From: Eunapius fragilis
Lineage: Eukaryota; Porifera; Demospongiae; Spongillida; Spongillidae
Direction: 5' to 3'
Assembly: GCA_963681505.1 (NCBI GenBank)
Contig: OY811982.1
Location: 7,325,272 to 7,389,271 of the forward strand
Length of the DNA: 64,000 nucleotides
In this document: piece after piece, positions 7,032 to 59,852 of the stretch
Layout: each line of letters begins with the position of its first letter
How positions within the stretch are numbered: the first letter of the stretch is position 1
The notes under the pieces: model-generated
Told to the model about the DNA's origin: nothing
Seen by the model: the letters and a program-made list of their open reading frames with translations, nothing else
Database searches by the model: none
Translations under genes and position numbers: made by a program

Positions 7032-8157
7032 CCCATGCAGTCATCTTTGGAGCCCTCTGTTTTCACATTTCCTCCTTGTGGATCTCGATATTTATACCTG
7101 TGAACACTTACGTGCTGTTGCTTGCTGCATCATGAGAGGGAATGGAGAAATGATTTGGGCTTTTAAAATGCATCATGTACATCATGTACAGTGTCTTTGC
7201 ATGAATGCAGGTTTTCTTATACATGCTCATGTTGGTAGCACTAAAAGAGTCAGTTATATATTTTAATCACCTCAGAAAAGCGTACCGCCTACTCAGCAAC
7301 ATGTTAATCACTTGCCATACCCCCCATATTGCCATCAAAAATGGTGGAAGGCATACGGCACTTTTCAGTATAACCGTTAACACTTAACGAGCGGATACTG
7401 TATATGTATGTCCAATCAATATTTGTAATGCCTAATTGAAGGAAAAACAAACGCAGGCCAGGCATTAGCTAAATTGCCTAATTGCTGCTAGAGTCGTTCG
7501 GACCAGGCTTAGGTTGCGAATGTTGGCATGCATGGGCTGAAACACATGTAACACTTGCGATTTATTTTAATTTTTTCTGTATATTAAAACCCCCACTGAC
7601 CTCCGTTTTTCATTCATCTGCATAGGTGGCACACCCACCTGCTGCTAATTACACACGCGCACACATACACTGTACACACGTTTACTCACGCTTTCCACCA
7701 TAAGACAGTTTTCTTTTCCAGGCCCTTGCTGTATACCCAGTAAATTGTTATGTTGTGTGCATGCTACATCAGTACAGTAAAACCACCCTTTGTACGCCAC
7801 ACATTGTTCACGGCCACTGGCGGATACAGAGGGGGGGTTGAGATCATATTCACGATCAATTTTCACCATATATGGTTTTGTTGAGTCCATATATGGTTAA
7901 AATTGATTGTGAATATCATCTCAACCCCCCCTCTGTATCCGCCAGTGTCACCACAGCGCGAGGGCCACCGTACCGCAATCCACCCACGTTTTGCATCCTA
8001 ATCGAATCATTGGTCGTTAGATTTTTTTTAACAAAAACGATGTCATTTAGGTCCGCCGTGTATTAGTACAAGCCTTTATCAAGCTAGGAGTAAAGTCGCT
8101 TGGACTTTACCAAGTTTAACTCGTTATCGTGGCCGCGACAACATATTGATCGTCAAT
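7032..8157. other. intergenic interval and 5' flank of copy A
   Basis: No gene is recognised apart from the hairpin element at 7,812-7,945. The last about 70 bases before 8,158 align with the sequence before the copy B start (GGAGTAAAGTCGC versus GGATTAAAGTCAC; TCGTTATCGT versus ACGATATCGT), marking the left edge of the duplicated block. Confidence 0.6.
7812..7945. mobile_element. hairpin MITE with GGCGGATACAGAGGGGGG termini
   Basis: A near-perfect inverted repeat: ACTGGCGGATACAGAGGGGG at the left is mirrored by CCCCCTCTGTATCCGCCAGT at the right, and the inner arms CATATTCACGATCAATTTT and AAAATTGATTGTGAATATC also pair. Both arms contain the ATATATGG core. No coding capacity. A relative with the same termini and core lies at 55,065-55,206. 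Confidence 0.8.
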
Positions 8158-10167
8158 ATGGCTGCAAGTGCTCATGACGACGAAGATGACGATGTCTGTG
8201 TACAAAGTACCTACGAAAGCAAAGTCGCCACTTACCTATCCCTCAGGAAGCAGAAACGGAAACAGCTGAACAAGGATCTGAATTCAGCAGCTTCTCAAGC
8301 AGAGAAGGAGGAATTGTTTCGCAAGTATCTTGTTAGCATTTCCCTCGAGAAGATAGATGAATTTATATTCAGTTCTGAAGGAGAGTGTAATGAGAAGTGG
8401 GTCGCTTCCCGAAACAAAGATGATGTGGTGCTGTCCACTTTAGCGAGCAAGCATGGGTGCAAGCACATCGTGGAGGAATACTGTCAGTCACTGGAGGACA
8501 AGATGCAGCCAGGCTCAGGGATTCGGATGCAACCACTCGATGAAATCATGTGTGCCAATTGCACTCCGAAGATCGGGTCACCAACCAGGTACGGTGTTGC
8601 TATGTGTGAGAAGCGAGGGATGATGGACTGTTCTAAAGGGTGCCGCCTGGTGAAATATTGCTCCCAGAGATGCCAGAAAGAGCATTCACCAGCACATAAG
8701 GTTGATTGCAAGTCGTGGTATGCTGAGACAGCATGGCTGAAGGGCAGTAAGTATGATATGACTGCAGAGGATGCCAGTGGGGAGCCCCAGATTGTGGATC
8801 GAAGATTTCATTCAAAGGCAATCCGGTTTCCATCCAGTGCCACGAGCCTCCCAACACCATGCAGTGCATGCCTGGCTGAGAGTGGGGACCTGAGTGACAT
8901 GGTGCATACGATCCTGAGTGTTCCAGATGGATATGAGGGTGAGATCACCCTGCATCTCAACCATGCATCACCTAACGTGGCTTTCTGCAACCTGCTATCA
9001 CTGCTAGCCATGGGCAGTCTTGGAGAGCTGCGTTTTGACGTGGTGATACAATTGTGGTATTCTGTCGCAATGACTGACAAACAATTGGGGAGCATCACTA
9101 ACATGCTGGGAAAGCTAGTGCAGAACTCTGAGGAAATGGTGCTAAAAGGTCCATATTGTGCATCATTGCCAAAACTGCCACAAGTCACGCTCACAGTAGA
9201 CCTTGATCAGAAACATTGGCATTTGTGTTTCACCGAGAATACATTGAAATCACTACGACACATTGGAAAGTGCATGGTAGATCGGGATAAGCACATTTTG
9301 AGCCCTCAAGGCAAACGATATGCTGCTGAGATGCTCACCACACTGTCCCCTCACCAGAGAGTATCGTGGGACAACTTTGCTGAGCAGGGCTTGCTGCTCC
9401 CTCTAGGAGCATTCAATGCACACCACAATGTGCAGAACCCATTCCTGTTCGATGTTGATAATCACTGGAGGCCAGAAAGTCAGCTTGATCCTCTACAGTG
9501 CTGGCCAAGGGCTGAGATAATTGCAGCAGGGGAGAAGTGTAATGTACCCAGCAATGACATTTATGGTGCATTGTTCTTCCTTATTCGGCAGAAGCTCTCT
9601 GAGTGCATCCAGACGCTAAGCAAGCACTGGTTTCACATCGTAGTCACCTGCTGTGAGCCAAGTGCCCTCGTGCATCAACTCCAACAATCCAAGACAGCAA
9701 TACACTATATCTCAGGGGTGGATGCTAGACAGCTGCAGTATGCACATTCAGACGATCAGGAACTCTCAGCCCTCAGTGTTAGGGCTCTGAAGGAGATCAT
9801 TCAGGGTGCAGGCCTATCAACAGAAGGATGCCTGGAGAAGAGTGATCTCGTGGATCGTGCTGCCTTGATTCTTGGACGTGCTGCACCATCCGATGGTAAA
9901 TATTCCGCTGCAGCAGACACAACATTGCCACCCACACAACAACAACCCGACGAGGCAAGTGAGAAGAGAAGGTTCATAGAGACTCGAGCAAGCCTTGATT
10001 CTCCTGATTTCCTTGCTGTCTGCTATCTTGCCCAGCATGGCGACATAACGTGGATGGAGAAAGGTGCTGAGAAGTCAATTCCTGAATGCCTTGCCCTCTA
10101 TGGCTGGCATCAACTATGCTGGTTTACACCTGAGAATGCACTAAGTGCCTTATCACATCTGCAGTGA
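8158..10167 (+). CDS. copy A 5' ORF: MYND finger, DUF4470-like region and SAP-like motif
   Basis: This 669-codon frame matches the N-terminal quarter of copy B. The start at 8158 is chosen because similarity to B begins there (MAA in both) and only a non-ATG codon extends it upstream. Residues about 132-184 form a MYND-type zinc finger (CANC, then C-x6-DC, KYCSQRC, H and HKVDC). Residues about 250-500 resemble the DUF4470 and following conserved region of MYND-DUF4470 proteins, with the LHLNHASP, LWYSVAM, DPLQCWP and NDIYGALFFLIRQKL motifs. Near residues 540-575 is a SAP-like helix pair ending in GCLEKSDLVDRA. It stops at the TGA that replaces an Arg codon of copy B. It could yield a stand-alone MYND protein. 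Confidence 0.7.
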   Translation: MAASAHDDEDDDVCVQSTYESKVATYLSLRKQKRKQLNKDLNSAASQAEKEELFRKYLVSISLEKIDEFIFSSEGECNEKWVASRNKDDVVLSTLASKHGCKHIVEEYCQSLEDKMQPGSGIRMQPLDEIMCANCTPKIGSPTRYGVAMCEKRGMMDCSKGCRLVKYCSQRCQKEHSPAHKVDCKSWYAETAWLKGSKYDMTAEDASGEPQIVDRRFHSKAIRFPSSATSLPTPCSACLAESGDLSDMVHTILSVPDGYEGEITLHLNHASPNVAFCNLLSLLAMGSLGELRFDVVIQLWYSVAMTDKQLGSITNMLGKLVQNSEEMVLKGPYCASLPKLPQVTLTVDLDQKHWHLCFTENTLKSLRHIGKCMVDRDKHILSPQGKRYAAEMLTTLSPHQRVSWDNFAEQGLLLPLGAFNAHHNVQNPFLFDVDNHWRPESQLDPLQCWPRAEIIAAGEKCNVPSNDIYGALFFLIRQKLSECIQTLSKHWFHIVVTCCEPSALVHQLQQSKTAIHYISGVDARQLQYAHSDDQELSALSVRALKEIIQGAGLSTEGCLEKSDLVDRAALILGRAAPSDGKYSAAADTTLPPTQQQPDEASEKRRFIETRASLDSPDFLAVCYLAQHGDITWMEKGAEKSIPECLALYGWHQLCWFTPENALSALSHLQ

Positions 10168-10273
10168 GCGAAAGACATGAAGAATGCTTATGGACTACTT
10201 TACTGGGGTTTAGTCATGGATAGTGCATACGGAGATACTGCTGATTCTTGCTCCGTTGCATGGACCAGCTACC

Positions 10274-13200
10274 ATGAGTCTGCATGCCTCGGAAATGAGG
10301 TTGGAATGTTTAATGTTGCACATGTCTTGGCACCATGTAGCCACTCTACTTGAAGACCTCAAGGTGGATTTGAAGAATAAGCCACTGGCTGTTTCTTTCA
10401 CGTACAAGCATGTGGGGATTGATGTGGTACTAGCCAGCCCTAACATTGAGCCCCTTTCACAGTGTTACCTTCCACCACGTCCACGTTTCTTTCGCAGGCC
10501 CTCGTTATCTGTTCAAGAGTGCGCCTTCCTTCGTGCACAGCCCCCTCTGTTCGGTGCTGTTGTACGACTATTGAAGAAGTGGCGAGCAAGTGCAGAGAAC
10601 TGGCCTCGTCATAGCAAGCCACGTTCCTATTTACTGGAACTCATTGCATTAGCAGCAGTTCAGAAAGTCAATGCCTCGCAGTTATCTGAAGAAAATGTCC
10701 GCAGTGGCTTCGTCACTTCACTGGAGTTGCTGCTGCAAGTAATCAGTGGCAACCTGAAGCTGTACTGGGTTGACAACTACCCTGAATATAGCATCCAGTT
10801 TGAGAACCATGATGGGCCAATCGTGATGGATCCCTTCGATCCCACTAACAACTTGGCTGGGCTTCTTCAGATCCAGGATTGGCGTCCCCTCAGCCAGCTG
10901 GCTGAGCAGACCCTCATTGCCATAAGAGATCACAACCTCGTGCAGAGAGTCATCCATATTACACCAACTGCTGAGCAAAGTGTGTCTGCTATCTCTCCCA
11001 AGTACAGGTTTTCGTGCCTCATTCTCAGAGCAGAGCAGTTTATAATCTCTGGCAATCTGGAGGAAGCACTGGATGCCCTGGCAGCTGCATCACAGATTGA
11101 CACCTCAAACATAAAACTGCAAGGCATGTGGTATTTTTGCATCACACAGCTGTTTGCCGAAGAATGTGCTGACGCAAAACAATCATTGACGGAAGCTGAG
11201 TTGCTTTTGAGATTGAAGGATGCTGTTGTGGACACACTACAAGTGTCAAAATTTGGGAAGGAAGTGAAGAAAGTGATTGCCCAACCAGTGAAAGCACCTG
11301 ATTACATCACCAAGAACATTGGTGCATGCGAGGAGATGGACATTCCATTCTCAACTTACATGAGTTCACGTGATGAGGCTGATAGCGACTCCTCAGAAAT
11401 GGATGACATCCCGCGGATGGTGAAGCTGTTCCCTGAGCCCAGTGAGGACGAGCTCTACACTCCACAAATCACCAGTGTAGTCTGGAAATCAGCTCTTAAG
11501 GATGGAAACTACACTGCATGGCTAATGTTGAAGCAACTGACCGATCAGATGCCTTCAAAAGAGCAGCGAGATATGTACACAAGGGCTAGTCTGCAGTGTG
11601 TGTTGGCACATGATGCACTTTGTGTGGGTAAGGATGTTATTGGCCTTGACCGTATGACAGATTCCATCCTGGCAATAGCTCAAACTGCTCAGCTTCATGC
11701 GTTACATGCCCTCGCCCTTGCTGCTGCTAAACGTGTGTTGAGAGAAGTTTCATCAGAGATGCAGGTCTTACCTCACTGTGGCCTCAGTCTTCAAGTGGCA
11801 GCCAGCATTGTCCAAGTGCACGTGTATGTGATGATGAAGGCATGGGCCAAGGTTAGGGAAGCTCTGAAGCCTCTATTGAAGCAAGATGACTTGTGTAATC
11901 GAGCTGATGTTTGTTACCTAATTGGGGGTAGCTTGATTTGGACAGGTGATCTAGATGCAGCTATGTTGTGGCACGAACGAGGCATCACAGCCGACCCCAC
12001 TTTCTGTTTTAATCTGTTTACACTGGGGTTTGCAATGATTCACTCAAAGTCGACAAACAAAGCTGACCCAGAGCAAAAGTTGCTTATCATGAAGACTGCA
12101 GAGAAGCACTTATGGCAGTACATCAAGCAAGGGGTGCCAGAAGACAAAAAGCGCTGTGATGCAATGTATGAGCTGGTCTACGTGGCTGTGTTTTCATCAC
12201 AATTTCAGGAGGCTCACCGCATATTGGAGATGGCAATTGAGGCAGATATCAGGCGCACTCAGATCTACAACCAACCCAGCAACAATGGTACTAAGAAGGA
12301 TCTGCTGGTGGCTGCAATCCAAATGGAGCAGTTAGCAATGGTGAATGGAGCTACATGTATGCAAAATGATTATCAAGGGATAAATCTATTTTATGACACT
12401 GTACGAACAAAACTGGGTGGAAATCCACTCCTGATTGATGTCGATATTGCGACGCACCTGAAGAATGTGTCGATTTTAGGCCTGGATACTGCGAGGGATA
12501 ACGTTTCTCAGATAATGGCCACATCTTTTTGGAATGGTGACAAATCTAATTCTGAATTAGCTGCTAAAATACTAAAGAAACTGACACAATGTAAAGACAG
12601 TGGTGATAGTGTTTGCAGGGAAGATGATGTGAATGAAGAGCAGGGGGAGAAGAAGAAGGGCATGCAATATATTGTGGTGGACTGCGAAGGGTCTGGTGAA
12701 TTCCTTTCATTGGGGGAAGCACTCAGGAGTGATTGCATTGCCACTGGCACAGTGATTACAATGAAAGGAGGCACGTACAAGGAAAAGGTAGGCCTTTGCA
12801 TTAAGCACGAACACCTCACCATAAGAGCAGCGAACAGTAAAGAGAAGGTCATTATAAAGTCGTATTCTGGAATCCTAGTGGAGGCCAACCATGTGACTCT
12901 GTCAGGGTTATCAGTGGACCTTTTGAGTCCCAAGGGTTACGATGGTGTTGGAGAATTGGATGGTCACGCCATCCATGTACGAGCAGGCACAGCTGTGGTG
13001 CTGGAAAACTGCAGTGCTAATAGTGCAATAAGTGCAGCAATCGGTATAGGGGACGTAGTGCAGTCTACTGAGATCGAGGTCACAATGGTGATGTGTAACG
13101 CAAAATCAAGTGTTGGCAATGCAATTATTTGTGCGGGTTCCCACACCAAGGTGCAGCTGCAGCAGTGCAATGGCACTCACTCCAATAACGGGCTTGAGGT

Positions 13201-14743
13201 GCGAATGGGTGCCACAGCTCATGTGAGAAGATCAAACTTTTCTAGCAACAGGAATTCTGGCATGCTTGTATGGCAACATGCAAGTCCAGAAACAGTTGTT
13301 GGACCAGATAACATCATCCAGGACAATAAAGGTTCAGGAGCCCTGTTGGCATCACGGGGCATCATCTTTCATCATAACAAGGTCACTGGGAATAAGCTTT
13401 TTGGGGTCTCTGTCCAGCCTGATCCCGCCCTAGGTTTCAAAGATGTCGAGGTCAAGGTAGAAGACTGTGAACTCTTTCAGAATGGCTTAGGCGGAGTCCA
13501 GTTTTACGGGGAAACGTGTGGTGTCATCTCTGGTTGCCATATAAAAGAGAACAATCACTGTGGCATCATGGTGGGCATGGGTGTGGAGAAGTTGAGCATT
13601 GCAGGAAACCGAATACAAGGTAATTACTCCCTGCAAGAAACTGGCATTATGATGCTGGGCAGGGCAAAAGTGGGAGACGATAACAAGTTCAGCAACAATA
13701 GGATGACTCCTCAAAAGGCAGAAGAGTATATGAAGACAATGCAGAAATTAGGGTTAATCGATGCAAAAACAGAAATGGCAAATGAGTTCATCAAGTTGAA
13801 TCAACACCATCAAGGAAGACATGCAGGTCAGAGGCGACGTGAGATTTTAGTGTGTAAACAGATGGCTCCTCACCTGTTTGGACGACTTCAGTGTGCCAAG
13901 TGTGGTGCTGAAGGTGGGCCTCACAAGAAGATGGTGCCTTGTGTCAAATGCAATGAAGTGGTGTACTGCTCCACAAAATGCCTCGAAGCAGATGCCAATC
14001 GGCATCAAGAGTCTTGTGATCCAGTGCTGTTCTATGAGACTGCAGATGGAAAGGAGATAAGCATTGATGCAGAACACCTGCAGCATATGCAAGCACAGCG
14101 AGAGAATGCAGGCATGGTGTGTGCTTACTGCAAAGCCATCGCAATCAGAGAGTATTTCAAGAAGTGTGCCAAATGCAGACATGCTGCCTACTGTTCAAAA
14201 GAATGTCAGATAAAGCATTGGCCTGTCCACAAAACTGTGTGCAAGAGTGCAGCCAAGGAATCTTGTAGCCAGAAGACGAAGGCTGGAGCTTCCTCTATTG
14301 TCACCGTGAAAGCCACCACTCAGAATCCATTCAAAGCCGAGTGCACATCCATGAGTGGCACAGTCCTGAGCATTAATAAATATATGGGTCCTGATGGCAG
14401 TGTGGTGAACAGGATTGGGGACCCAGTGGGCGTGTTTCAGTTGTCAAGTGATGCAGTGCCAATGGTCATCAAGATACAAGGGAGCGAGGATGGCCTCATC
14501 AAGAAAAATACCCACCTAATGTTTTATAACGAGAATAGGAGTGTGAGTGGGTGGATTCAAGCTGCCATGAACACCACAGGGGAGTTTAAGGATGCTTACA
14601 CCCTTATATGTGACACAATCATGCAGCGTGGGGATGCAGGTCGGTTGGGTGGCAAGAAGGGCTATTTCCAGGCACTGGTTCAGAGGAACATGGAGGTGAA
14701 GGTGAATTGTGGGAATCTGGTTGCTGAGAATATTGAGTGGTGA
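10274..14743 (+). CDS. copy A 3' ORF: OAS C-terminal remnant, TPR-like, beta-helix, two MYND fingers
   Basis: About 1,489 codons open from ATG 10274; a longer version would need a GTG start at 10223. The first about 20 residues come from the frame-shifted junction and have no counterpart in copy B. It keeps the third OAS aspartate (GIDVVLASP, Asp about 50) and the full OAS1 C-terminal domain (to about 10,920, DPFDPTNNLAG and DWRPLSQLAEQ), but lacks the GS and first two catalytic Asp residues, so it cannot be a conventional nucleotidyltransferase. Then follow TPR-like helices, a beta-helix (about 12,662-13,700), two MYND fingers (13,892-14,017 and 14,120-14,242) and the conserved C-terminus ending ENIEW. 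Whether it is translated is unknown. Confidence 0.65.
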   Translation: MSLHASEMRLECLMLHMSWHHVATLLEDLKVDLKNKPLAVSFTYKHVGIDVVLASPNIEPLSQCYLPPRPRFFRRPSLSVQECAFLRAQPPLFGAVVRLLKKWRASAENWPRHSKPRSYLLELIALAAVQKVNASQLSEENVRSGFVTSLELLLQVISGNLKLYWVDNYPEYSIQFENHDGPIVMDPFDPTNNLAGLLQIQDWRPLSQLAEQTLIAIRDHNLVQRVIHITPTAEQSVSAISPKYRFSCLILRAEQFIISGNLEEALDALAAASQIDTSNIKLQGMWYFCITQLFAEECADAKQSLTEAELLLRLKDAVVDTLQVSKFGKEVKKVIAQPVKAPDYITKNIGACEEMDIPFSTYMSSRDEADSDSSEMDDIPRMVKLFPEPSEDELYTPQITSVVWKSALKDGNYTAWLMLKQLTDQMPSKEQRDMYTRASLQCVLAHDALCVGKDVIGLDRMTDSILAIAQTAQLHALHALALAAAKRVLREVSSEMQVLPHCGLSLQVAASIVQVHVYVMMKAWAKVREALKPLLKQDDLCNRADVCYLIGGSLIWTGDLDAAMLWHERGITADPTFCFNLFTLGFAMIHSKSTNKADPEQKLLIMKTAEKHLWQYIKQGVPEDKKRCDAMYELVYVAVFSSQFQEAHRILEMAIEADIRRTQIYNQPSNNGTKKDLLVAAIQMEQLAMVNGATCMQNDYQGINLFYDTVRTKLGGNPLLIDVDIATHLKNVSILGLDTARDNVSQIMATSFWNGDKSNSELAAKILKKLTQCKDSGDSVCREDDVNEEQGEKKKGMQYIVVDCEGSGEFLSLGEALRSDCIATGTVITMKGGTYKEKVGLCIKHEHLTIRAANSKEKVIIKSYSGILVEANHVTLSGLSVDLLSPKGYDGVGELDGHAIHVRAGTAVVLENCSANSAISAAIGIGDVVQSTEIEVTMVMCNAKSSVGNAIICAGSHTKVQLQQCNGTHSNNGLEVRMGATAHVRRSNFSSNRNSGMLVWQHASPETVVGPDNIIQDNKGSGALLASRGIIFHHNKVTGNKLFGVSVQPDPALGFKDVEVKVEDCELFQNGLGGVQFYGETCGVISGCHIKENNHCGIMVGMGVEKLSIAGNRIQGNYSLQETGIMMLGRAKVGDDNKFSNNRMTPQKAEEYMKTMQKLGLIDAKTEMANEFIKLNQHHQGRHAGQRRREILVCKQMAPHLFGRLQCAKCGAEGGPHKKMVPCVKCNEVVYCSTKCLEADANRHQESCDPVLFYETADGKEISIDAEHLQHMQAQRENAGMVCAYCKAIAIREYFKKCAKCRHAAYCSKECQIKHWPVHKTVCKSAAKESCSQKTKAGASSIVTVKATTQNPFKAECTSMSGTVLSINKYMGPDGSVVNRIGDPVGVFQLSSDAVPMVIKIQGSEDGLIKKNTHLMFYNENRSVSGWIQAAMNTTGEFKDAYTLICDTIMQRGDAGRLGGKKGYFQALVQRNMEVKVNCGNLVAENIEW

Positions 14744-33197: not shown

Positions 33198-33214
33198 CTG
33201 GCGTAGTCAGCAGG

Positions 33215-33985: not shown

Positions 33986-34119
33986 GTGGGGGGGAAAGGG
34001 CATGTTGCTTGTGAATGTGCAACTTCTAAGCAACACGAATAGCAGGAACACTTCCTCCCCTCCGTGCAAAGGGCCAAGCACGAGAGGGGGCCAAGTGGGC
34101 CCCAGAATTAACAGTCCCA

Positions 34120-37859: not shown

Positions 37860-37879
37860 CCTTCTGGAAGAGGGAGTGG

Positions 37880-38060
37880 TGTAATAGTCTGTCACTGCGC
37901 ATGTCATCAACCTCTGAACTCTGGTCATGGATGTGCAGACTGTCCATTAATGTGTCTGTAATGTCACTATAAATAGGGACCAGTGATTTGTATTGGGTGT
38001 GCTTATTATTAGAGTGTGTCGCTTGCTGTCAGTGCCAACGGGTTGCGAGCGTTCTTTACA
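37880..38060 (+). repeat. 3' LTR of the Ty3/gypsy element
   Basis: 181 bp with the same ends as the 5' LTR. Differences are three substitutions, a one-base loss in CATGG(G)ATG and a four-base loss in GACTGTC(TGTC)C. Confidence 0.93.
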
Positions 38061-38064
38061 CATG

Positions 38065-45790: not shown

Positions 45791-45973
45791 TCAACAATCA
45801 GCAAGGGAAAAAAAAAATTACGTACATATGGCAAATCCGAACCATGAGCAGCAGCAAAAGAGCTCGACAGTACAGGAAACATAAACCGACGTATGTACGT
45901 GTCGTCACCATTTCGCATAGTGCACGACAGCGCGACCAACGGCCACCGCTGGCGATGTACACATTTTCCCGGA

Positions 45974-45980
45974 TATATAA
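45974..45980 (+). promoter_or_regulatory. TATA-like box upstream of copy B
   Basis: A TATATAA match lies 171 bases before the chosen start codon at 46151. No transcription start evidence is available and no clear equivalent was seen in copy A. Confidence 0.25.
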
Positions 45981-46150
45981 TATTATTACGAAACTACAAT
46001 AATGTTTATGGTCGTTATTTTGGCGGGTCATTATTTTTAATTGGAACAACCTTAGCTTTGTGGGAATGCTTCCATTCTATAGCCCGCCGTGTAGGGATTA
46101 AAGTCACTCGTTCACTTAGCGGTTCACGATATCGTATGTTAACCGTCGAT

Positions 46151-49100
46151 ATGGCTGCATGCGTGGTAAATGCAAGTGATGAAGATAGCAACGACTGTGT
46201 ACGAAGTACCTACGAAAGCGAAGTCGCCATCTACCTATCCCTCAGGGAGCAGAAATTGAAGCAGCTGGACAAGGCTCTGAATGCAGCAGTTTCTCAAGCA
46301 CAGAAGGAGGATGTGTTTCGCGAGTATCTTGTTAGCTGTAACAACGAGAAGAAAAGCGATTTTATATTCGATTTTAAAGGAGGGTGTAATGAGAAGTGGG
46401 AAGCTTCCCTTAACCAGTATTTAGTGGTACGGTCCACTATAGCGAACAAGCATGGATGCATCCACATCTTGGATGGGTACTGTCAGTCATTTAAAGACCA
46501 GATGCAGCCAGGCTCAGGGCTCCGGATGCAACCACTGGATGAAATCATGTGTGCCAATTGCACTCCAAAGATCGGGTCACCAACCAGGTACGGTGTTGCT
46601 AGGTGTGAGAAGCCAGGGATGATAGACTGTTCTGAAGGGTGCCGCCTGGTGAAATATTGCTCCCGGAGATGCCAGAAGAAGCATTCACCAGCACATAAGG
46701 TTGATTGCAAGTCAAGGTATGCTGAGACAGCATGGCTGAAGGGCAGTAAGTATGATATGACTGCAGAGGATGCCAGTGGGGAGCCCCAGATTGTGGATCG
46801 ACGATTTCATTCAAAGGCAATCCAGTTTCCGTCCAGTGCCACGAGCCTCCCAACACCATGCAGTGCATGCCTGGCTGAGAGTGGGGACCTGAGTGACATG
46901 GTGTATTCGATCCTGAGTGTTCCAGATGGATATGAGGGCGAGGTCACCCTGCATCTCAACCATGCATCACCTAACATAGCTTTCCGCAACCTGCTATCAC
47001 TGCTAGCCATGGGCACTCTTGGAGAGTTGATTTGCGACATGCTTATACAATTATGGTATTCAGTCGCAATGACTTGCGATCAAATTGAGATCATCACTAA
47101 AATGCTGGAAGAGCTAGTGCAAGGCTCTGACGGAAAGGTGACAAACAGTCCGTACAGTGCATCTTTGCCAAAACTGCCACATGTCATGCTCACAGTAGAC
47201 CTTGATCAGAAACATTGGTTTGTGATGCTCACCGAGAATAGATTGGAATCATCACGACATATTGGAAAGTGCATGGAAGATCGGAATAAGTATTTGTTCA
47301 GCTCTCAAGGCAAAAAATACGCCGTTGAAATGCTCACTGCACTGTCCCCTCACCAGAGAGTCTCGTGGGACAAATTCGCAAAGCATGGTATGTTGCTCCC
47401 TCTAGGAGCATTCAATGCTCACCACAATGTGCAGAACCCATTGCTGTTCGATGTTGATAATCGCTGGAGGCCAGAAAGTCAGCTTGATCCTCTACAGTGC
47501 TGGCCGAGGGCTGAGATAATTGCAGCAGGGGAGAAGTGTCACGTACCCAGCAATGACATTTATGGTGCATTGTTCTTCCTTATTCGGCAGAAGCTCTCTG
47601 AGTGCACCCAGAAGCTAAGCAAGCACAGGTTTCACATCATAGTCACCTGCTATGAGCCAGGTGCCCTTGTGCATCGACTTCAACAATCCAAGACAGCAAT
47701 ACACTATATCTCAGGGGTGGATGCTACACAACTGCAGTATGCACATTCAGACGACCAGGAACTCTCAGCCCTCAGTGTTAGGGCTCTGAAGGAGATCATT
47801 CAGGATGCAGGGCTATCATTAGAAGGATGCCTGGAGAAGAGTGATCTCGTGGATCGTGCTGCCTTGATTCTTGGACGTGCTGCACCATCCGATGGTAAAT
47901 ATTCCGCTGCAGCAGACACAACATTGCCACCCACACAACAACAACCCAACGAGACATGCGAGCAGAGAAGGTTCATAGAGGCTCGAGCAAGCCTTCATCC
48001 TCCTGATATCCTTGCTGTCTGGTACCTTGCCCAGCATGGTGATACAACATGGATGAAGAAAGGTGCTGAGAAGTCGATTCCTGAATGCCTTGCCCTCTAT
48101 GGCTGGTATCAACTATGCTATTGTACATCTGAGAATGCACTAAGTGCCTTATCACATCTGCAGCGAGCAAATGACATGAAGAATGCGTATGGACTACTTT
48201 ACTGGGGTTTGGTCATGGATTGTGCGTACGGTGACACCTCTGATGCTTGCACTGTGGCGTGGACCTGCTACCATGAGTCTGCATGCCTCGGAAATGAGGA
48301 TGGAATGTTTAATGTCGCACATGTCTTGGCAGCTCGTGGAGATCACAAACAGGCAGTTGTGTGGTGGAAAAAAGCGCAGCAGCATGGGCCTTCATTGTTC
48401 GAGCTGTATCGCTGTTACCATCATGGGTATGGCTGCACACAAGATGATCTGGAAGCGAGGAAGTACTTGCAGCAGGCTGCTGATGAAGGCTATGGCCCTG
48501 CATGTGCTACCTTGAGTGAGTGGTATTGTTCTGGCTGGGATAATGTACTCCGTAAGAACCCAGAGAAACAAGCGTATTGGTGCAAGCAGGCCACCATCTC
48601 ATCAGAGAAGCATATCTATATAGACCCCTTGCGGAGCTTACTTGGGACAAATGCCACTCCAGCCTGGTGGAAGTCCCTAAGAACAGTGGTGGAGTTGATG
48701 GAACCAAGTGGTGGAGAAACCAAGTCTGAGAGCAAAGCAAGTGCTGAAGCAGAAGACACATTTGACACATGGAAGTTTGAAGCAGTGAAATTCATCATGC
48801 AAATGAATCCTACACTGCCCAATTGTAATGGCATGGGTGACTTCAGTTCAACTCCACCGCATCATTCATTCCTTCTGAGAGCAGAGAGGCTGGCCCTAAC
48901 ATCAGATGAACGGCTGCATCTGCAGGGCATCGTGCAGGAGATCACAGACCTTCTGACCCGCAGCAGAGTGATCAGCTCGGTGGAAATATGTGGATCGTTT
49001 GGAAAAGGCACTGCTGTAAGTGGTTGTGCTGATCTTGACATGGTGGCAATAACTGCGAAATGCTTTGAGAGCAATATGTACCTGTCCCTGCAGCACCATA

Positions 49101-52100
49101 TAGCCACTCTGCTCAAAGACCTCAAGGTGGATATAAAGCATAAGCCACTTGCTGTATCCTTCACATACAAGAATGTGGGGATTGATGTGGTACTAGCTAG
49201 CCCTAACATTGAACCCCTTTCACAGTGTTACCTTCCACCACGACCACGCTTCTTTCGTAGGCCCTCGTTATCTGTTCAAGAGTGCGCCTTCCTTCGTGCA
49301 CAGCCCCCTCTGTTTGGTGCTGTTGTACGACTATTGAAGAACTGGCGAGCAAGTGCAGAGAACTGGCCTCATCATAGCAAGCCACGTTCCTATTTACTGG
49401 AACTCATTGCACTAGCAGCGGTTCAGAAAGTCAATGCCTCGCAGTTATCTGAAGAAAATGTTCGCGGTGGCTTTGTTACTTCACTTGAGTTGCTGCTGCA
49501 GGTAATCAGTGGCAATCTGACGCTATACTGGGTTGACAACTACCCTGAATATAGCATCCAGTTTGAGAACCATGATGGTCCAATCGTGGTGGATCCCTTT
49601 GATCCTACAAACAACTTGGCTGGGCTGCCTCAGATCCAGGATTGGCGTCCCCTGAGCCAGCTGGCTGAGCAGACCCTCATTGCTATAAGAGATCACAACC
49701 TCGTGCAGAGAGTCATCCATATTACACCAACTGCTGAGCAAAGTGTGTCTGCTATCTCTCCCCAGTATAGGTTTTCTTGCTTCGTTCTCAGGGCAGAGCA
49801 GTTTATAAGAGCTGGCAATCTGGAGGAAGCACTGGAAGCTTTGAGAGCTGCATCACAGATTGACACCTCAAACATGAAACTGCAAAGCATGTGGTATGAG
49901 TGCATCACACAGCTGTTTGACGAAGAATGTGGCGCAAAGCAATCATCATTGACAGAAGCTGAGTTGCTTTTGAGATTGAAGGATGCTGTTGTGGATGCCG
50001 AACCAGTGTCCCGATTTGGGAAGGAAGTGAAGAAAGTGTTTGCCCAACCAGCGAAAGCACCTGATTACATCACTAAGGACACGGGTGCATGCGAGGAGAT
50101 GGACATCCCATTCTCAACTTACATGCGTTCGCGTGATGAGGTTGATAGTGACTTGTCGGAAGAGGAAGACATCCCGCGAATGGCGAAGCTTTTCCCAGAG
50201 CCCAGTGAAAACAATCTCTACACTCCACTAATCACCAGTGTAGTCTGGAAATCAGCTTGTAAGGATGGAAAGTACAAAGCGTGGTTGATTTTGAGGCGAA
50301 AAACCGACAAGATGCCTTCAAAAGAGCAACGAGATATGTACACGAGGGCTAGTCTGCAGTATGTGTTGGCACATGATGCACTTTGTGTGGGTAAGGATGT
50401 TATTGGCCTTGACCGTTTGACAGCTTCCATCCTGGCAATAGCTCAAACTGTACTGTATCCTGAGTTACCTGCCCTCGCCCTCGCTGCTGCTAAAGGAGTG
50501 TTGAAAGAAGTTTCTTCAGAGATGCAGGTCTTACCTCACTGTGGCCTCAGTCTACAAGTAGCAGCCAGCATTGTCCAAGTTCGGATGCATGTGATGATGC
50601 AGGCATGGCCCAAGGCTAGGGAAGCTCTGAAGCCTCTATTGAAACGAGATGACTTGTGTAGTCGAGCTGATGTTTGTCATTATGTTGGTGGTAGCCTTAT
50701 CTGGACAGGTGATCTCGATGCTGCAATATTATGGCTTGAACGAGGGATTGCAGCAGACCCCACTTTCCATATCAATTTCTATGCACTTGGGTATGCAATT
50801 ATTCACTCGAAGTCGACAAATGAAGCCGACCCAGAGCGAAAGTCACTCATCATGAAGACTGCAGAGAAGCATTTGTGGCAGTACATCAAGCAAGGGGTGC
50901 CAGAAGACAAAAAGCGCTGTGATGTGATGTACTTACTGGTCAATGTGTCTTTACTTTCTTTGAAATTTCAGGAGGCTCACCACATATTGGAGATGGCTAT
51001 TGAGGCAGATATCAGGCGCACTCAGATATACAATGAACCGAGCAACTGTGGTGCTAAGATGTCTCTGCTGATGATTGCAACCGAAATGGAGCACTTAGCG
51101 AAGGTAAATGGAGCTATGCAAAATGATGATCCTGAGATAAATCTTTTTTATGACACTCTGAAAACAAAACTGTGTGGAAATCCACTCCTGATTGATCTCA
51201 ATATTGCAAAACAACTAAAGAATGTGTCGAGTGTAGGCCTGCATACCATGAGGGATAACGTTTCTCAGAGAATGACCACATCTTTTTGGAGTGGTGACAA
51301 ATCGGAGTCTGAATTAGCTGCTAGCATTCTGAAGAAACTGACACAAAGTAAAGACAGTGATGATAGTGTTGGCAGGAAAGATGATGTGAATGAAGAGCAG
51401 GGGGAGAAGAAGAAGGGCATGCAACATATTGTGGTGGACTGCGAAGGGTCTGGTGAATTCCTTTCATTGGGGGAAGCACTCAGGAGTGGTTGCATTACCA
51501 CTGGCACAGTGATTACAATGAAAGGAGGCACATACAAGGAGACCATAGGCCTTTGCGTTGTGCATGAACACCTCACCATAAGAGCAGATTGCAGTAAAGA
51601 GAAGGTCGTTATCAAGTCATATGCTGGAATCCTAGTGGAGGCCAGTCATGTGACCCTGTCAGGGTTATCGGTGGACCTTTTGAGTCCCAAGAGTTACGAT
51701 GGTGTTGAAGAACTGGGTGGTCACGCCATCCATGTACGAGCAGGCACAGCCGTGGTGCTGGAAAACTGCGATGCTATTAGTGCGACAGGTGCGGCAATGG
51801 TTGTAGGGGACATAGTGCAGTCTAATGAGATCGAGGTCACAATGGTGATGTGCAACGCAAGATCAAGTGTTGGCAATGCGATTATTTGTGAGGGTTCCCA
51901 CACCAAGGTGCAGCTGCAGCAGTGCAATGGCACTCACTCCAAAAACGGGCTTGAGGTGCGAATGGGTGCCACAGCTCATGTGAGAAGCTCACACTTTTCT
52001 TGTAACAAGAATTCTGGCGTGCTCATATGGCAACATGCAAGTCCAGAAACAGTTGTTGGACCAGATAACATCGTCCAGGACAATCAAGGTTCAGGAGCCC

Positions 52101-53476
52101 TGCTGGCAGCACAGGGCATTCATTTTCATCATAACAAGGTCACTGGGAATAAGCTTTATGGGGTAACTGTCCAGGCTGATCCCTCCCCTGGTTTCAAAGA
52201 TGTCGAGGTGAAGATAGAAGGCTGTGAACTCTTTCATAACGGCTTGGGTGGAGTCCAATTTTGTGAGGGAACGTGTGGTGTCATCTCTGGTTGCCACATA
52301 AAGAAGAACAATCAATGTGGCATCATGGTGGGCATGGGTGTGGAGAAGTTGGCCATTGCAGGAAACCGAATCCAAGGCAATTACTCCCATCAAGAAACCG
52401 GCATTGTGATGAGGGGCAGGGCAAAAGTGGCAGACAATAACAAGTTCAGCAACAATAAACTGACTCCTGAAAAGACTGAAGAGTATTTGAAGACAATGCA
52501 GGAAGTAAACTTCATGCAAGCAATAAAAGAAAAAGATTTCATTGTGGTGAATGATCATCAAAAAAGGCATGTAGGTCAGAGGCGACGTGACATTTTAATG
52601 GGCAAACAGATGGCTCCTCATCTATTTGGACGACTTCAGTGTGCCAAGTGTGGTGCTGAAGGCGGGCCTCGCAAGAAGATGGTGCCTTGTGTCAAATGCT
52701 ATGAAGTGGTGTACTGCTCCACGCAATGTCTTAAAGCAGATGCCAATCAACATCAAGAGTCTTGTGATCCAGTCCTGTTCTATGAGTCCCTTGATGGAAA
52801 GGAGATAAGCATTGATACAGAACACCTGCAGCGTATGCAAGCAGAGCGAGAGAATGCAGGCATGGTGTGTGCCTACTGCAACGCCATCGCAAACAAAGAG
52901 CCTTTCAAGAAGTGTGCCAAATGCAGACATGCTGCCTACTGTTCAAAAGAATGTCAGATAAAGCATTGGCCTGTCCACAAAGCTGTGTGCAGCCAGAAGA
53001 CACAGACGAAGTCGGTGGTATCGCTGTCTTCCTCAGTTGTCACCGTGAAAGCCACCACTCAGAATCCAAACGAAACCAATTGTACGTCCAAGAGAGGCAC
53101 AGTCCTGCGATTTAATTCATATATGGGTCCAGATGGCAGTGTAAGGATTGAGGACCCAGTGGGCGTGTTTCAGTTGTCGAGTGATGCAGTGCCAATGGTT
53201 ATCAAGATACAAGGGAGCGAGGATGGCCTCATCAAGAAAAATACCCACCTAATGTTTTATAACGAGAATAGGAGTGTGAGTGGGTGGATTCAAGCTGCCA
53301 TGAACACCACAGGGGAATTTAAAGATGCTTACACCCTTATATGTGACACAATCATGCAGCGTGGGGATACAGGTCGGTGGGGTGGCAAGAAGGGCTACTT
53401 CCAGGCGGTGGTTCAGAGGGACATGGAGGTGAAGGTGAATTGTGGGGATCTGGTTGCTGAGAATATTGAGTGGTGA
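46151..53476 (+). CDS. giant MYND-Sel1-OAS nucleotidyltransferase-TPR-beta-helix-MYND2 protein (copy B, intact)
   Basis: A 2,441-codon frame with no intron. I chose ATG 46151 because similarity to copy A starts there; the frame stays open 86 codons further to ATG 45893, but copy A has no such extension. Domains, by residue: MYND 134-186; DUF4470-like 250-510 (LHLNHASPN, LWYSVAM, NDIYGALFF); SAP-like 537-575 (GCLEKSDLVDR); Sel1/TPR-type repeats 617-817; OAS nucleotidyltransferase about 905-1020 and OAS1_C 1039-1180; TPR-like helices about 1,215-1,660; parallel beta-helix 1757-2103; MYND 2164-2205 and 2240-2280; conserved C-terminus to ENIEW. OAS enzymes make 2'-5'-linked oligoadenylates when bound to dsRNA; MYND fingers bind peptides; beta-helices of the FBXO11/SHCBP1 type bind ligands or proteins. 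A cytosolic or nuclear sensor is inferred; no signal peptide or membrane segment is seen after 46151. Confidence 0.9.
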   Translation: MAACVVNASDEDSNDCVRSTYESEVAIYLSLREQKLKQLDKALNAAVSQAQKEDVFREYLVSCNNEKKSDFIFDFKGGCNEKWEASLNQYLVVRSTIANKHGCIHILDGYCQSFKDQMQPGSGLRMQPLDEIMCANCTPKIGSPTRYGVARCEKPGMIDCSEGCRLVKYCSRRCQKKHSPAHKVDCKSRYAETAWLKGSKYDMTAEDASGEPQIVDRRFHSKAIQFPSSATSLPTPCSACLAESGDLSDMVYSILSVPDGYEGEVTLHLNHASPNIAFRNLLSLLAMGTLGELICDMLIQLWYSVAMTCDQIEIITKMLEELVQGSDGKVTNSPYSASLPKLPHVMLTVDLDQKHWFVMLTENRLESSRHIGKCMEDRNKYLFSSQGKKYAVEMLTALSPHQRVSWDKFAKHGMLLPLGAFNAHHNVQNPLLFDVDNRWRPESQLDPLQCWPRAEIIAAGEKCHVPSNDIYGALFFLIRQKLSECTQKLSKHRFHIIVTCYEPGALVHRLQQSKTAIHYISGVDATQLQYAHSDDQELSALSVRALKEIIQDAGLSLEGCLEKSDLVDRAALILGRAAPSDGKYSAAADTTLPPTQQQPNETCEQRRFIEARASLHPPDILAVWYLAQHGDTTWMKKGAEKSIPECLALYGWYQLCYCTSENALSALSHLQRANDMKNAYGLLYWGLVMDCAYGDTSDACTVAWTCYHESACLGNEDGMFNVAHVLAARGDHKQAVVWWKKAQQHGPSLFELYRCYHHGYGCTQDDLEARKYLQQAADEGYGPACATLSEWYCSGWDNVLRKNPEKQAYWCKQATISSEKHIYIDPLRSLLGTNATPAWWKSLRTVVELMEPSGGETKSESKASAEAEDTFDTWKFEAVKFIMQMNPTLPNCNGMGDFSSTPPHHSFLLRAERLALTSDERLHLQGIVQEITDLLTRSRVISSVEICGSFGKGTAVSGCADLDMVAITAKCFESNMYLSLQHHIATLLKDLKVDIKHKPLAVSFTYKNVGIDVVLASPNIEPLSQCYLPPRPRFFRRPSLSVQECAFLRAQPPLFGAVVRLLKNWRASAENWPHHSKPRSYLLELIALAAVQKVNASQLSEENVRGGFVTSLELLLQVISGNLTLYWVDNYPEYSIQFENHDGPIVVDPFDPTNNLAGLPQIQDWRPLSQLAEQTLIAIRDHNLVQRVIHITPTAEQSVSAISPQYRFSCFVLRAEQFIRAGNLEEALEALRAASQIDTSNMKLQSMWYECITQLFDEECGAKQSSLTEAELLLRLKDAVVDAEPVSRFGKEVKKVFAQPAKAPDYITKDTGACEEMDIPFSTYMRSRDEVDSDLSEEEDIPRMAKLFPEPSENNLYTPLITSVVWKSACKDGKYKAWLILRRKTDKMPSKEQRDMYTRASLQYVLAHDALCVGKDVIGLDRLTASILAIAQTVLYPELPALALAAAKGVLKEVSSEMQVLPHCGLSLQVAASIVQVRMHVMMQAWPKAREALKPLLKRDDLCSRADVCHYVGGSLIWTGDLDAAILWLERGIAADPTFHINFYALGYAIIHSKSTNEADPERKSLIMKTAEKHLWQYIKQGVPEDKKRCDVMYLLVNVSLLSLKFQEAHHILEMAIEADIRRTQIYNEPSNCGAKMSLLMIATEMEHLAKVNGAMQNDDPEINLFYDTLKTKLCGNPLLIDLNIAKQLKNVSSVGLHTMRDNVSQRMTTSFWSGDKSESELAASILKKLTQSKDSDDSVGRKDDVNEEQGEKKKGMQHIVVDCEGSGEFLSLGEALRSGCITTGTVITMKGGTYKETIGLCVVHEHLTIRADCSKEKVVIKSYAGILVEASHVTLSGLSVDLLSPKSYDGVEELGGHAIHVRAGTAVVLENCDAISATGAAMVVGDIVQSNEIEVTMVMCNARSSVGNAIICEGSHTKVQLQQCNGTHSKNGLEVRMGATAHVRSSHFSCNKNSGVLIWQHASPETVVGPDNIVQDNQGSGALLAAQGIHFHHNKVTGNKLYGVTVQADPSPGFKDVEVKIEGCELFHNGLGGVQFCEGTCGVISGCHIKKNNQCGIMVGMGVEKLAIAGNRIQGNYSHQETGIVMRGRAKVADNNKFSNNKLTPEKTEEYLKTMQEVNFMQAIKEKDFIVVNDHQKRHVGQRRRDILMGKQMAPHLFGRLQCAKCGAEGGPRKKMVPCVKCYEVVYCSTQCLKADANQHQESCDPVLFYESLDGKEISIDTEHLQRMQAERENAGMVCAYCNAIANKEPFKKCAKCRHAAYCSKECQIKHWPVHKAVCSQKTQTKSVVSLSSSVVTVKATTQNPNETNCTSKRGTVLRFNSYMGPDGSVRIEDPVGVFQLSSDAVPMVIKIQGSEDGLIKKNTHLMFYNENRSVSGWIQAAMNTTGEFKDAYTLICDTIMQRGDTGRWGGKKGYFQAVVQRDMEVKVNCGDLVAENIEW
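46550..46708 (+). other. MYND-type zinc finger 1 of copy B
   Basis: Residues 134-186: CANC, then cysteines in VARC, MIDC and EGC, KYCSRRC, H in KKHSPAH and a last C in KVDC. The spacing between the second and third cysteine pair is longer than in canonical MYND fingers because of the inserted IGSPTRYG stretch. Confidence 0.8.
48040..48600 (+). other. Sel1/TPR-type repeats of copy B
   Basis: Residues about 631-817. Alternating helices with AAxxG-type turns: NEDGMFNVAHVLAARGD, AVVWWKKAQQHG, LEARKYLQQAADEGYGPA and KQAYWCKQA. Sel1-like repeats usually scaffold protein complexes. All of this from residue 728 on is absent from copy A. Confidence 0.7.
48860..49690 (+). other. OAS-family nucleotidyltransferase core and OAS1_C domain of copy B
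   Basis: The GS motif lies at residues 948-949 (CGSFGKGTAVSGCADLDM), the paired aspartates at 961 and 963, and the third aspartate at 1012 (GIDVVLASP). The OAS-specific C-terminal domain follows: RLLKNWRASAENW, SYLLELIALAA, GFVTSLELLLQV, LTLYWVDNY, DPFDPTNNLAG and DWRPLSQLAEQ, each with a counterpart in vertebrate OAS1. With all three metal-binding residues in place, catalysis is plausible. I could not judge the RNA-binding residues or product linkage. Confidence 0.88.
51419..52460 (+). other. right-handed parallel beta-helix of copy B
   Basis: Residues 1757-2103. Starts VVDCEGSGEFLSLGEAL, a pectin-lyase-like first coil, then repeated short-strand coils with Asn/Gly ladders (GTAVVLENCDA, HSKNGLEVRMG, NNQCGIMVGMG, GNRIQGN). 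The pattern is that of the Beta_helix/FBXO11-SHCBP1 family. No catalytic residue set of a polysaccharide lyase is evident. Confidence 0.8.
52640..52990 (+). other. MYND-type zinc fingers 2 and 3 of copy B
   Basis: Finger 2, residues 2164-2205: CAKCG, PCVKC, VYCSTQC, H and ESC. Finger 3, residues 2240-2280: CAYC, KKCAKC, AYCSKECQIKHWPVHKAVC. Both are complete, and finger 3 is a textbook MYND sequence. Copy A keeps both. Confidence 0.92.
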
Positions 53477-56022
53477 GAGCGCAGGTGAGATGGTGCTATG
53501 AGCATGGGAGTGTTATTAGCAAGCTAGTCCCTTAAGGTCCAACTGTGTGCACTTTCTTAAGGTAATGCATGTCCAGATGTGGCCCATATCTTGATTTTTA
53601 TTCAAATTGAATTCTAAACAGATTAAAAGTGTAAATTGTCCTGATTTCAACGTGTCTTTCATCATACCAGTCAACATTAATCATCCTAAACCTAAATTCT
53701 ACCAAGCATAAATTAATTCATACATCATTGCTTTAATCATTTTTAAATTTATGGCTCCATCTGTAGCAGTAATTTAACTCAAGCTCACTTGTACTTGGAC
53801 ATATGCTCATGATACACATGTAAAGCTGGTATGTAACATGACCTGTATAAGTGCTAATAGCACACTCAGGTTCGCTGGGGGTAAATGTAACTAAAAGGTG
53901 GAAGGGTGTGCACCGGAAGCTATTGGTACCATAAACAATTTATGCATGAAATCACAGGATTTCAACAGTTTCAAGCAAAATCAATACCACACATCTACTT
54001 CCAATTGAAAATCAATTCTGTTCTTTCTAAAGGACTGCACTACTGATGGCATTGTAATGTACTGGACTAGTAGCACATTTAGCGTAAATGAATGCTATGA
54101 AATTAATTAGTTGGTATGATGGGTGAGGGGAGTAAATGTACCCCCTGTGCGCCATCAAGCAGACACCGATGTATATCCCCCTCAGTCCACTTTTTAGTTA
54201 CATTTGCCTCCCTGGGGGCAAATTGAACTAAAAGGTGTTGTGTGTGGGACCCTCCCACTGGAAACTCTATGTGCCCTAATCAATTTATGCATGCAATCTC
54301 AGGTTTTCAACAAATTGACTCAAAGGACTGAGCACTCCTTATAAAGGACGAAGGGGGGGGGGGGGGGGGGGGTGGCATTGCATTCCCCTGGAGCGGAAAT
54401 CTGATCATTATATGGGGACTCCAGTATATTAGGAGGGGAACCATTGGACTCCAGAGTCTACCAACATTTCCAACTGTTGCTGGAGATCCATTATAAACAC
54501 ACATCATTACTACTAATATAGGTACATGTATAAGTTTATAAATAGCATCTACAAGAATGCACGCTCTCTGCATCCTGTAGTATGCACTTAGATGTATTGC
54601 ATGTACACTATACATGTAGTTACCTGTGAATGCCTATTAATTAGTGAGGTGTCCAGCAAGTCATTTATTGCATTGCTAAATTAATGTCAAAGTTATTTGA
54701 AATAACTACATCTCTTCCTCCCTTTCGTATCTCACCTAACACCATGTTAACCTTCTCACACCTATACAGCAGTAGTGGTAATGGCCTCCCTTGCAAAATT
54801 TCAAAGATCCTCTTATTGAAAGGACATCAGCTAGTAGTGAACATCAGTTGTGTGTACTGGTTGTTTTTATTAACATGTATTGTATGAAACATATTACTTT
54901 GGAATGATATCGACTATGTTAGTCCTGCACACACAACACACAATGTTTACAGATATGCATGCATGTTTATGTGTTAGTGTGTTTTTGGCCTTTCACATTA
55001 TGGCGGAAGCTAACATCTTATCTATCACTTTGTGCATGTGGAGCATCACTTGGATGGATGTCAGTAACGGATCCGGGGGGGGGGGGGGGGGGGGGGGCGG
55101 GGACAAATCATATTCACAATTGATATGGCATAGGTAATACCATATATGGTGGAATATTATTGTGAACATGATTTGTGCCCCCTGCCCCCTGAATCCGCCA
55201 CTGAATGTGACCTACACTCACTGTCAGATGAAACACGAAGGTCGGGCTACGTCCAACTACATGTGTGTGGTATTATATGTGAGTGTCTTAGAAGCACACA
55301 TTTGACACACACTATGTGCAAGGATAGTTCATTTGGTGTTGGTCGTTGAACAACTGTGCATGACTGTAACTACGCGTGAATGCAGTGTGTATATGGTTAT
55401 TAAGTAATGGTAATGCCTGTAGTTATCTTATCATGCTGTCCTTTCTCATAACTTGACAATTGATAAATTGTGTGACTTCCTCTCTGCTCTAATTTGCCCC
55501 TCCACAATCCATATTTCAAGTCCACTCTATCTCAATACTTACCATCAAAGTAATTCCAATGTCCTGCCGTGGCCGTAATGTCATGTTAATTAATTTGTAA
55601 CCATAATGTAATGTATTACATTGACATCAGGCTTACGCCTGCTTGTGTACCCGCGTTCGGACCAATTACTCAAGGAATTGAATGACAGGCCGTAATATTC
55701 ATCTGTGTGAGTACGCGAGCAATACTGTGATTTAGATTTTTTGTACCATGATTTTCATCCTCATCCTGTCCCTATGTCGGATATCGATTAATTACTCGTT
55801 TCCACAGCAGTTGTAACAGAAATAATTATAATAAATTTCATCGTCTCGCATCTTTAATGGCGTTTGGTCAGACCAGCCATAAGTCAGGCCTTCTGTTGGA
55901 GATATATACTTGTCAGGTCTATTGCCAGTGTGGTGTAATGTATTGTCACGTGCAGTGCGCGTGGGAAAGGGAGATGTGGTGTAATGTATTGTATTGTCAC
56001 GTGCGGTGCGCGTGAGAACAAT
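53477..56022. other. copy B 3' flank and interval before the palindrome
   Basis: Homologous to the copy A 3' flank to about 55,560. It contains a direct repeat pair (53,880-54,000 and 54,195-54,320, AACTAAAAGGTG with AATTTATGCATG), a poly-G run near 54,350, the MITE at 55,065-55,206, and a direct repeat (GTGGTGTAATGTATTGTCACGTGC) at about 55,930 and 55,977 abutting the palindrome. No gene recognised. Confidence 0.6.
55065..55206. mobile_element. hairpin MITE with GGATCCGGGGGG termini
   Basis: ACGGATCCGGGGGG at the left and CCCCCTGAATCCGCCACTGA at the right are inverted; inner arms ACAAATCATATTCACAA and GTGAACATGATTTGT also pair around ACCATATATGG. It shares this core with the element at 7,812-7,945. 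It is absent from the copy A flank, so it inserted after the duplication. Confidence 0.75.
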
Positions 56023-59840: not shown

Positions 59841-59852
59841 ACAGCCAATAAT

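Follow-up and report, generated by a model that had tools for sequence, protein, structure and literature searches.

An expanded family of single-exon genes encoding putative multidomain OAS-type nucleotide synthases in the freshwater sponge Eunapius fragilis

We identified a gene of Eunapius fragilis predicted to encode an intracellular multidomain OAS of 2,441 residues, as 1 of about two dozen tandem and dispersed single-exon duplicates. The gene lies in a 64-kb window (C12:7325272-7389271), by which we mean the whole stretch of DNA analyzed; positions given without a contig are those of the window, on the + strand unless stated otherwise. In our preferred reading, which we hold with a probability of roughly 0.6 together with this view of the family, the protein is a working nucleotide synthase gated by its flanking modules and acting without RNase L. 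By sequence, N-terminal MYND, DUF4470, and Sel1 modules and C-terminal TPR, beta-helix, and MYND modules flank an OAS-superfamily nucleotidyltransferase with complete catalytic residues. Like the OAS reported from other sponges, this central domain would make oligonucleotides with 2'-5' and/or 3'-5' linkages from ATP and possibly further NTPs. The modules on either side, and not a vertebrate-type dsRNA groove, would localize or switch the enzyme through protein partners of the MYND, TPR, and Sel1 parts, a ligand may be bound along the beta-helix, and the product would act via an effector other than RNase L. OAS enzymes are usually viewed as small proteins that sense dsRNA and whose output goes to RNase L. 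In the E. fragilis assembly searched, every recognizable OAS, about 25 in number, formed the core of a giant modular protein, and RNase L was not found. What inputs and outputs OAS have in animals that lack interferon and RNase L thereby becomes testable, as does the question whether such proteins make the type of 2'-5' oligonucleotides that has been reported in marine sponges. As far as searched, the gene family, its expansion, its selection pattern, and the absence of any other recognizable OAS are new.

Translation of the window gave a single stop-free open frame at 46151..53476, with 1 exon encoding 2,441 amino acids followed by a stop codon, as the preliminary description had claimed. The enclosing stop-to-stop frame (45848-53476, +) spans 2,542 codons and has a Met at 46151. 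The 1.5 kb upstream of this Met did not align with 4 of the 7 other full copies (L003-L006), was alignable over only 30-41 bases in L007 and L008, and could be aligned in its entirety in just 1 copy, L002, which is a recent duplicate; other family copies have a first Met similar to that at 46151; translation therefore likely starts at 46151, or at 46136 as in the window's own database protein (P0002), rather than at the in-frame ATG at 45893. The existence of at least 24 genome matches at 19 or more places and at least 34 database proteins, together with a pooled dN/dS of 0.43, indicates that the frame is not a product of chance.

The N-terminal part begins with MYND finger 1 at residues 151-186 (46601..46708), for which zf-MYND scored 22.5 bits in the N-terminal fragment (cut-off 22.7) and which was 1 of 3 stretches matched by zf-MYND in the whole protein (E 6e-20). 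It is followed by DUF4470 (PF14737) at residues 234-306 (46850..47068; 34.2 bits, cut-off 25, E 3e-8) and by a helix pair at residues 537-569 (47759..47857), which we take to be SAP-like and which matched ARMET_C with 24.9 bits in the fragment (cut-off 23.5) and, under the cut-off, with 22.2 bits in the whole protein. A Sel1-like repeat region at about residues 626-830 (48026..48640) was recognized through Sel1-repeat proteins of the PDB (8sxq, E 2.3e-8), with Pfam Sel1 remaining under its cut-off. Beyond the OAS region, we identified a TPR at residues 1212-1241 (49784..49873; TPR_2 and TPR_14) and a weak second TPR-like stretch at residues 1486-1537 (50606..50761; TPR_16, E 0.01, under the cut-off). 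A right-handed beta-helix occupies about residues 1759-2079 (51425..52387), with Beta_helix at E 6e-18 and NosD at E 7e-12 in the fragment and Beta_helix at E 5e-16 over residues 1859-2007 in the whole protein; its start is pectinesterase-like (Pectinesterase, E 0.001 in the fragment, under the cut-off). MYND finger 2, delimited by its Cys/His pattern at residues 2164-2205 (52640..52765), is the second of 2 zf-MYND stretches in the C-terminal fragment, and MYND finger 3 at residues 2240-2280 (52868..52990) is the best Pfam MYND stretch and also matched SMYD2 chains (E 1e-6). The protein ends in a conserved domain at residues 2331-2441 (53141..53473), with 36 of 111 positions invariant among the 27 rows longer than 2,150 residues (gaps ignored) and no Pfam match over the cut-off in either the whole protein or the fragment.

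The nucleotidyltransferase core at about residues 906-1040 (48866..49270) was recognized by alignment with OAS; alone, it had no Pfam match over the cut-off, with SMODS scoring 14.2 bits (cut-off 26.5) and Polbeta 13.6 bits (cut-off 26.9). Directly behind it, OAS1_C (PF10421) at residues 1046-1176 (49286..49678), which includes K1063, Y1081, and a DPxDPT motif, reached 45.2 bits in the whole protein and 48.5 bits (E 1e-12) in the fragment, against a cut-off of 19.9. A profile of the OAS region, in which 22 rows were combined (19 from E. fragilis places, the window among them, and 3 from the proteins P0036, P0037, and P0043), matched OAS2 best among PDB chains (E 1.7e-26), followed by OAS1 1px5 and 4rwn (both E ~9e-16), human OAS1 4ig8 (E 7.6e-15), OASL (1.9e-12), and OAS3 (1.1e-4); 4rwn is porcine OAS1 according to the available text of PMC6307210. 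Bacterial CD-NTases such as CdnC (6p80, E 2.9e-5) and SMODS bear a weak likeness to the profile and are farther away than animal OAS by E-value. Profile positions 67-294 corresponded to residues 57-324 of 1px5 (E 9e-16), with D1012 (49184-49186) placed against the Asp of the EVEFDVLPA motif. In the alignment with human OAS1, GS (residues 948-949, 48992-48997), D961 (49031-49033), and D963 (49037-49039) matched the GS and DxD of OAS1; the 3 Asp residues are catalytic by alignment. The preliminary description had placed GS and these Asp residues at exactly these positions, followed by an OAS1 C-terminal domain and embedded among repeats, a beta-helix, and MYND fingers, all of which was borne out by OAS1_C (E 1e-11), by 3 zf-MYND stretches, TPR_2, and Beta_helix in Pfam, and by the Sel1 matches in the PDB.

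Across 41 database rows (P0002, the window's own protein, to P0042), GS and DxD were retained in 39, the other 2 being gapped there; the third Asp was present in 38, and the remaining 3 had a gap at its position. All 19 aligned E. fragilis places had GS and all 3 Asp. At the position aligned with K213 of OAS1, 39 of the 41 rows carried K and the other 2 were gapped; at the one aligned with Y230, 33 carried Y, 5 carried F, and 3 were gapped. We take K213 and Y230 to be functional residues of OAS1. The central domain is thus, by sequence comparison, an OAS-superfamily nucleotidyltransferase with complete catalytic residues. AlphaFold models had low confidence (mean pLDDT 42.4 for residues 860-1240 from 30 rows, with no Foldseek match at E <= 0.001, and 47.5 for residues 1-610 from 26 rows), and the fold was therefore judged from sequence; around GS, DxD, and D1012, 2 strands, a helix, and 2 more strands were predicted in succession, a nucleotidyltransferase-like order to which we gave no evidential weight. 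Mab-21 (PF03281) was absent among whole-protein matches at E <= 1 and OAS-fragment matches at E <= 10. Genome searches for Mab-21 and STING gave no match, but neither did their positive controls.

We analyzed selection by pooled Nei-Gojobori estimates over 8 full copies (28 pairs), including 2 copies with 1 stop each. Against a pooled dN/dS of 0.43 for the whole protein, the nucleotidyltransferase core had 0.25, OAS1_C 0.21, the Sel1 region 0.24, almost equal to the OAS part, and the beta-helix 0.40. Residues 906-1190 had a dN/dS of 0.23 (bootstrap 0.16-0.33) versus 0.45 (0.40-0.50) elsewhere, the intervals being indicative because pairs share history, and in 319 equally long, non-overlapping stretches the value was never as low, the minimum being 0.27. 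With dS similar in the 2 parts (0.17 and 0.19, respectively), gene conversion does not explain the low value of the OAS part. Protein entropy among the 27 rows longer than 2,150 residues was likewise lowest in the OAS part, at 0.30-0.33 bits, versus at least 0.45 bits in every other segment. Pooled dN/dS exceeded 1 only at residues 2101-2170 (1.23), and the beta-helix did not evolve faster than average, so that its rate offers no hint of an arms race at a surface that binds a ligand.

On these estimates constraint is strongest on the enzyme part, and this, together with the retention of the catalytic residues wherever family rows cover them, favors a functional enzyme. These results bear on a different reading, a pseudoenzyme scaffold whose OAS part would have lost nucleotide synthesis and would function in binding, as in vertebrate OASL. 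OASL also has its OAS unit fused to protein-interaction modules, and the available text of PMC4446440 describes a protein with a ubiquitin-like tail that keeps the fold and dsRNA binding without catalysis, its third carboxylate being lost and its catalytic triad incomplete. The OAS part is embedded in interaction modules in the sponge protein too, but its triad is intact, GS, the 3 Asp, and the residue aligned with K213 are invariant wherever covered, and constraint peaks in exactly this part; we consider a scaffold without catalysis unlikely.

A classical dsRNA sensor, activated directly by dsRNA with the other modules only as scaffold, would fit membership in the same superfamily as OAS1-3. 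We compared 4 positions of the OAS1 groove (K60, K66, R195, and K199), whose numbering and roles we presume to be those of OAS1. The Lys of GKGT (K66; K952 here) was K in all 39 covered rows, and the position of K199 (R1049 here) was R in 32 of 41 rows, whereas the position of K60 was V or I in 39 of 39 covered rows and that of R195 was C in 37 of 41. Two of the 4 positions thus keep a basic residue in most rows and 2 do not, which makes classical dsRNA activation doubtful on sequence comparison. Groove mutants of OASL (R45E/K66E/R196E/K200E and K63E) appear in the available text of PMC4446440. For sponges, the accessible part of PMC6307210 reports OAS with fewer basic groove residues and dsRNA-independent action, and a work that it cites has, by its title, a Geodia OAS without need of dsRNA; we regard direct sensing of dsRNA by the giant protein as improbable.

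The same part of PMC6307210 reports that sponge OAS synthesized both 2-5A and 3-5A and that RNase L was not found in 4 sponges. Vertebrate OAS combine a dsRNA groove with RNase L. In our exon-wise search of 1 E. fragilis assembly, RNase L was not found; the sole Ribonuc_2-5A gene, with 3 exon matches at 1 genome place, matched IRE1 chains with its longest piece (55 aa). IRE1 served as a working positive, and the control genomes had no match. From the sponge OAS literature, the lost groove residues, and this IRE1-only match, we infer an OAS core that would be gated by its own flanking modules and act on another effector, as in our preferred reading.

The protein matched the E. fragilis genome (218,937,333 bases, 24 contigs) at least 24 times at at least 19 gene places, 16 of which had no internal stop and 3 of which did, these being lower bounds with 19 of 62 first-look candidates scored. 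A separate search with OAS1_C, in which all 28 candidates were scored, gave 25 places over the cut-off, with 17 on contig C12, 6 on C3, and the rest on C11 and C5, along with 3 further places under the cut-off with stops inside; control genomes had no match, and the sponge genome itself was positive. All 25 places lie within open frames of 980-2542 codons. Each of the 20 places that were fetched belonged to the giant OAS family, and among the 5 others, 3 lay inside full-length protein matches and 2 (on C5 and at C3:2690964) had DUF4470 and beta-helix matches close by. The generic SMODS profile (E <= 1) gave 15 places, all under the cut-off, with 14 adjoining OAS1_C places of the family and the last, on C22, lying between DUF4470 and beta-helix matches as an apparent broken copy. 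No OAS outside the giant family was found in the E. fragilis assembly by the OAS1_C and SMODS profile searches, which could overlook an OAS that has diverged strongly or is split into many pieces; the exon-wise search copes with split domains, having recovered IRE1 in 3 pieces.

The copies vary in their completeness. At 4 or more of the 19 places, the match ends near residue 2117 and resumes at MYND finger 3, defining a shorter subfamily without MYND finger 2 and the C-terminal domain. The 3 MYND fingers of the preliminary description thus hold for the window copy and not for these shorter members. Internal deletions were found in L022 and in the window's second copy (L011), which is broken into open frames 8032-10167 and 10214-14743 (8032..14743, +) and lacks the equivalent of residues 728-981, including the end of Sel1, GS, and DxD, while D1012 and OAS1_C remain. 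L002 (C12:7143877-7153876) is a recent duplicate of the window gene, with 97% protein identity and a 99% identical downstream flank, and is an early pseudogene with 1 TAG at codon 1718.

Among protein databases, the whole protein matched at least 34 proteins, and residues 935-1185 at E <= 10 returned the same 34 only, among 1,453 candidates sharing 5-residue words and 0.55-1.75 times as long as 2,441 residues, a scope from which distant multidomain relatives may escape. Eleven of the 34 were 100% identical to fetched E. fragilis loci (for 6 of these, the comparison covered just 1,131 residues). The rest, apart from P0010 and P0011, had best identities of 70-94% to the fetched loci, so that sequences from further freshwater sponge species, or from different haplotypes, are among the 34. 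P0010 is named Ephydatia muelleri and P0011 has the same gene-name prefix, and both are near the window gene's length. A search with a 361-aa piece returned at least 8 proteins, namely 7 pieces of the giant OAS family and P0043, a metagenome protein of 522 aa on a 6.7-kb contig with OAS1_C and 25-31% identity over the OAS region. Lacking GS and the first and third Asp, the divergent P0043 is a possible inactive OAS relative.

The preliminary description had held that no OAS with MYND fingers or a beta-helix was known. This does not stand, as the available text of Hall et al. (2021) describes an Oas1-like gene of E. muelleri, also a freshwater sponge, with NT, OAS1, TPR, 3 MYND, pectinesterase-like, and parallel beta-helix parts (PMC7882143). 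The same domain mix is thus found in another sponge, where the similar-length models P0010 and P0011 also belong. In that text the gene takes up a few sentences as 1 differentially expressed gene; copy number, catalytic residues, selection, and OAS repertoire are added here. The available main text of the E. muelleri genome paper reports tandem duplication and does not contain "oligoadenylate" or "MYND" (PMC7385117), and no further report of the giant architecture was found in the open-licence literature, among the matches listed. Compared with known systems, the family shares a common core of GS, 3 Asp, and OAS1_C with OAS1/2/3 and the sponge OAS of Geodia and Lubomirskia. Solved OAS1 chains have about 350 residues and no MYND, Sel1, TPR, or beta-helix, whereas the sponge giant OAS has all of these. 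Lubomirskia is a freshwater sponge too.

The E. muelleri report and gene models also bear on whether the long frame consists of adjacent units that are spliced or cleaved apart, an arrangement that the shorter subfamily without the C-terminal part might suggest. Against it, no stop interrupts the match in 16 of the 19 genome copies scored, P0010 and P0011 are modeled at nearly equal length, and the available text of Hall et al. describes 1 gene with all domains (PMC7882143), and we think separate proteins very unlikely.

Hall et al. further report, in the text available, that the E. muelleri gene is expressed, at a lower level 24 h after algal infection, and ask if symbiont pectin is the target (PMC7882143). 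A role in handling symbiont or surface glycans, with the beta-helix recognizing pectin-like glycans and the OAS part reporting their binding, would fit this lower expression and the weak pectinesterase-like start of the beta-helix. However, the expression basis is 1 gene at 1 time point in that text, and no signal peptide was evident at the frame start on inspection, so that glycans would need to reach the cytosol; we judge glycan handling an unlikely function. An immune or symbiosis role in general is plausible for the preferred gated synthase, given the multigene expansion and, by analogy, the lower expression with algae in the related sponge. Far more tentatively, freshwater sponges may hold essentially their whole recognizable OAS/SMODS-type repertoire in expanded intron-free receptor-synthases, in which MYND, Sel1/TPR, and beta-helix modules might gate oligonucleotide messengers acting on an RNase L-independent effector, as a nucleotide-signaling system for immunity or symbiosis that differs from both OAS-RNase L and cGAS-STING; we consider this broader proposal possible and rather doubtful.

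Some of the modules also occur elsewhere in the genome. Among 3 DUF4470 genes outside the OAS family (L032-L034), 2 end in MYND fingers, and these DUF4470-MYND genes hint at a source of the N-terminal part; BLASTP matched little besides MYND, and the hhalign probability was 0.3%. PF13229 had at least 128 matches (133 of 311 candidates scored), most of them outside the giant OAS family, and we therefore considered a larger superfamily. Long beta-helix frames, L035-L038 among them and often of 1,300-1,860 codons, are clustered on C5 (10.7-11.4 Mb), C1 (0.03-0.27 Mb), and C6 (7.0 Mb). The 4 regions looked at resemble secreted or membrane proteins: in 1, an intact frame of 1,251 aa looks like a membrane protein, and in the other 3, the longest frame, read over its first 700 residues, has a hydrophobic start and secreted-looking beta-helix repeats, with no MYND or OAS seen by eye. 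These 4 regions were set aside as unrelated, as members of a separate expanded family.

In the rest of the window, inspection revealed a frame with a DHHC palmitoyltransferase-like motif at 4605-5012 (+) and an open frame resembling a DDE transposase fragment at 31976-32488 (-). An LTR retrotransposon-like element spans 33011-38061, with direct repeats at 33011-33198 and 37879-38061 (96%) and frames that on inspection resemble reverse transcriptase, RNase H, and integrase. Downstream of the OAS gene, a large imperfect palindrome extends over 56020-63335; its arms (56020-58993 and 60385-63335), inverted relative to each other, share 96% identity, and a low-complexity repeat lies towards its center.
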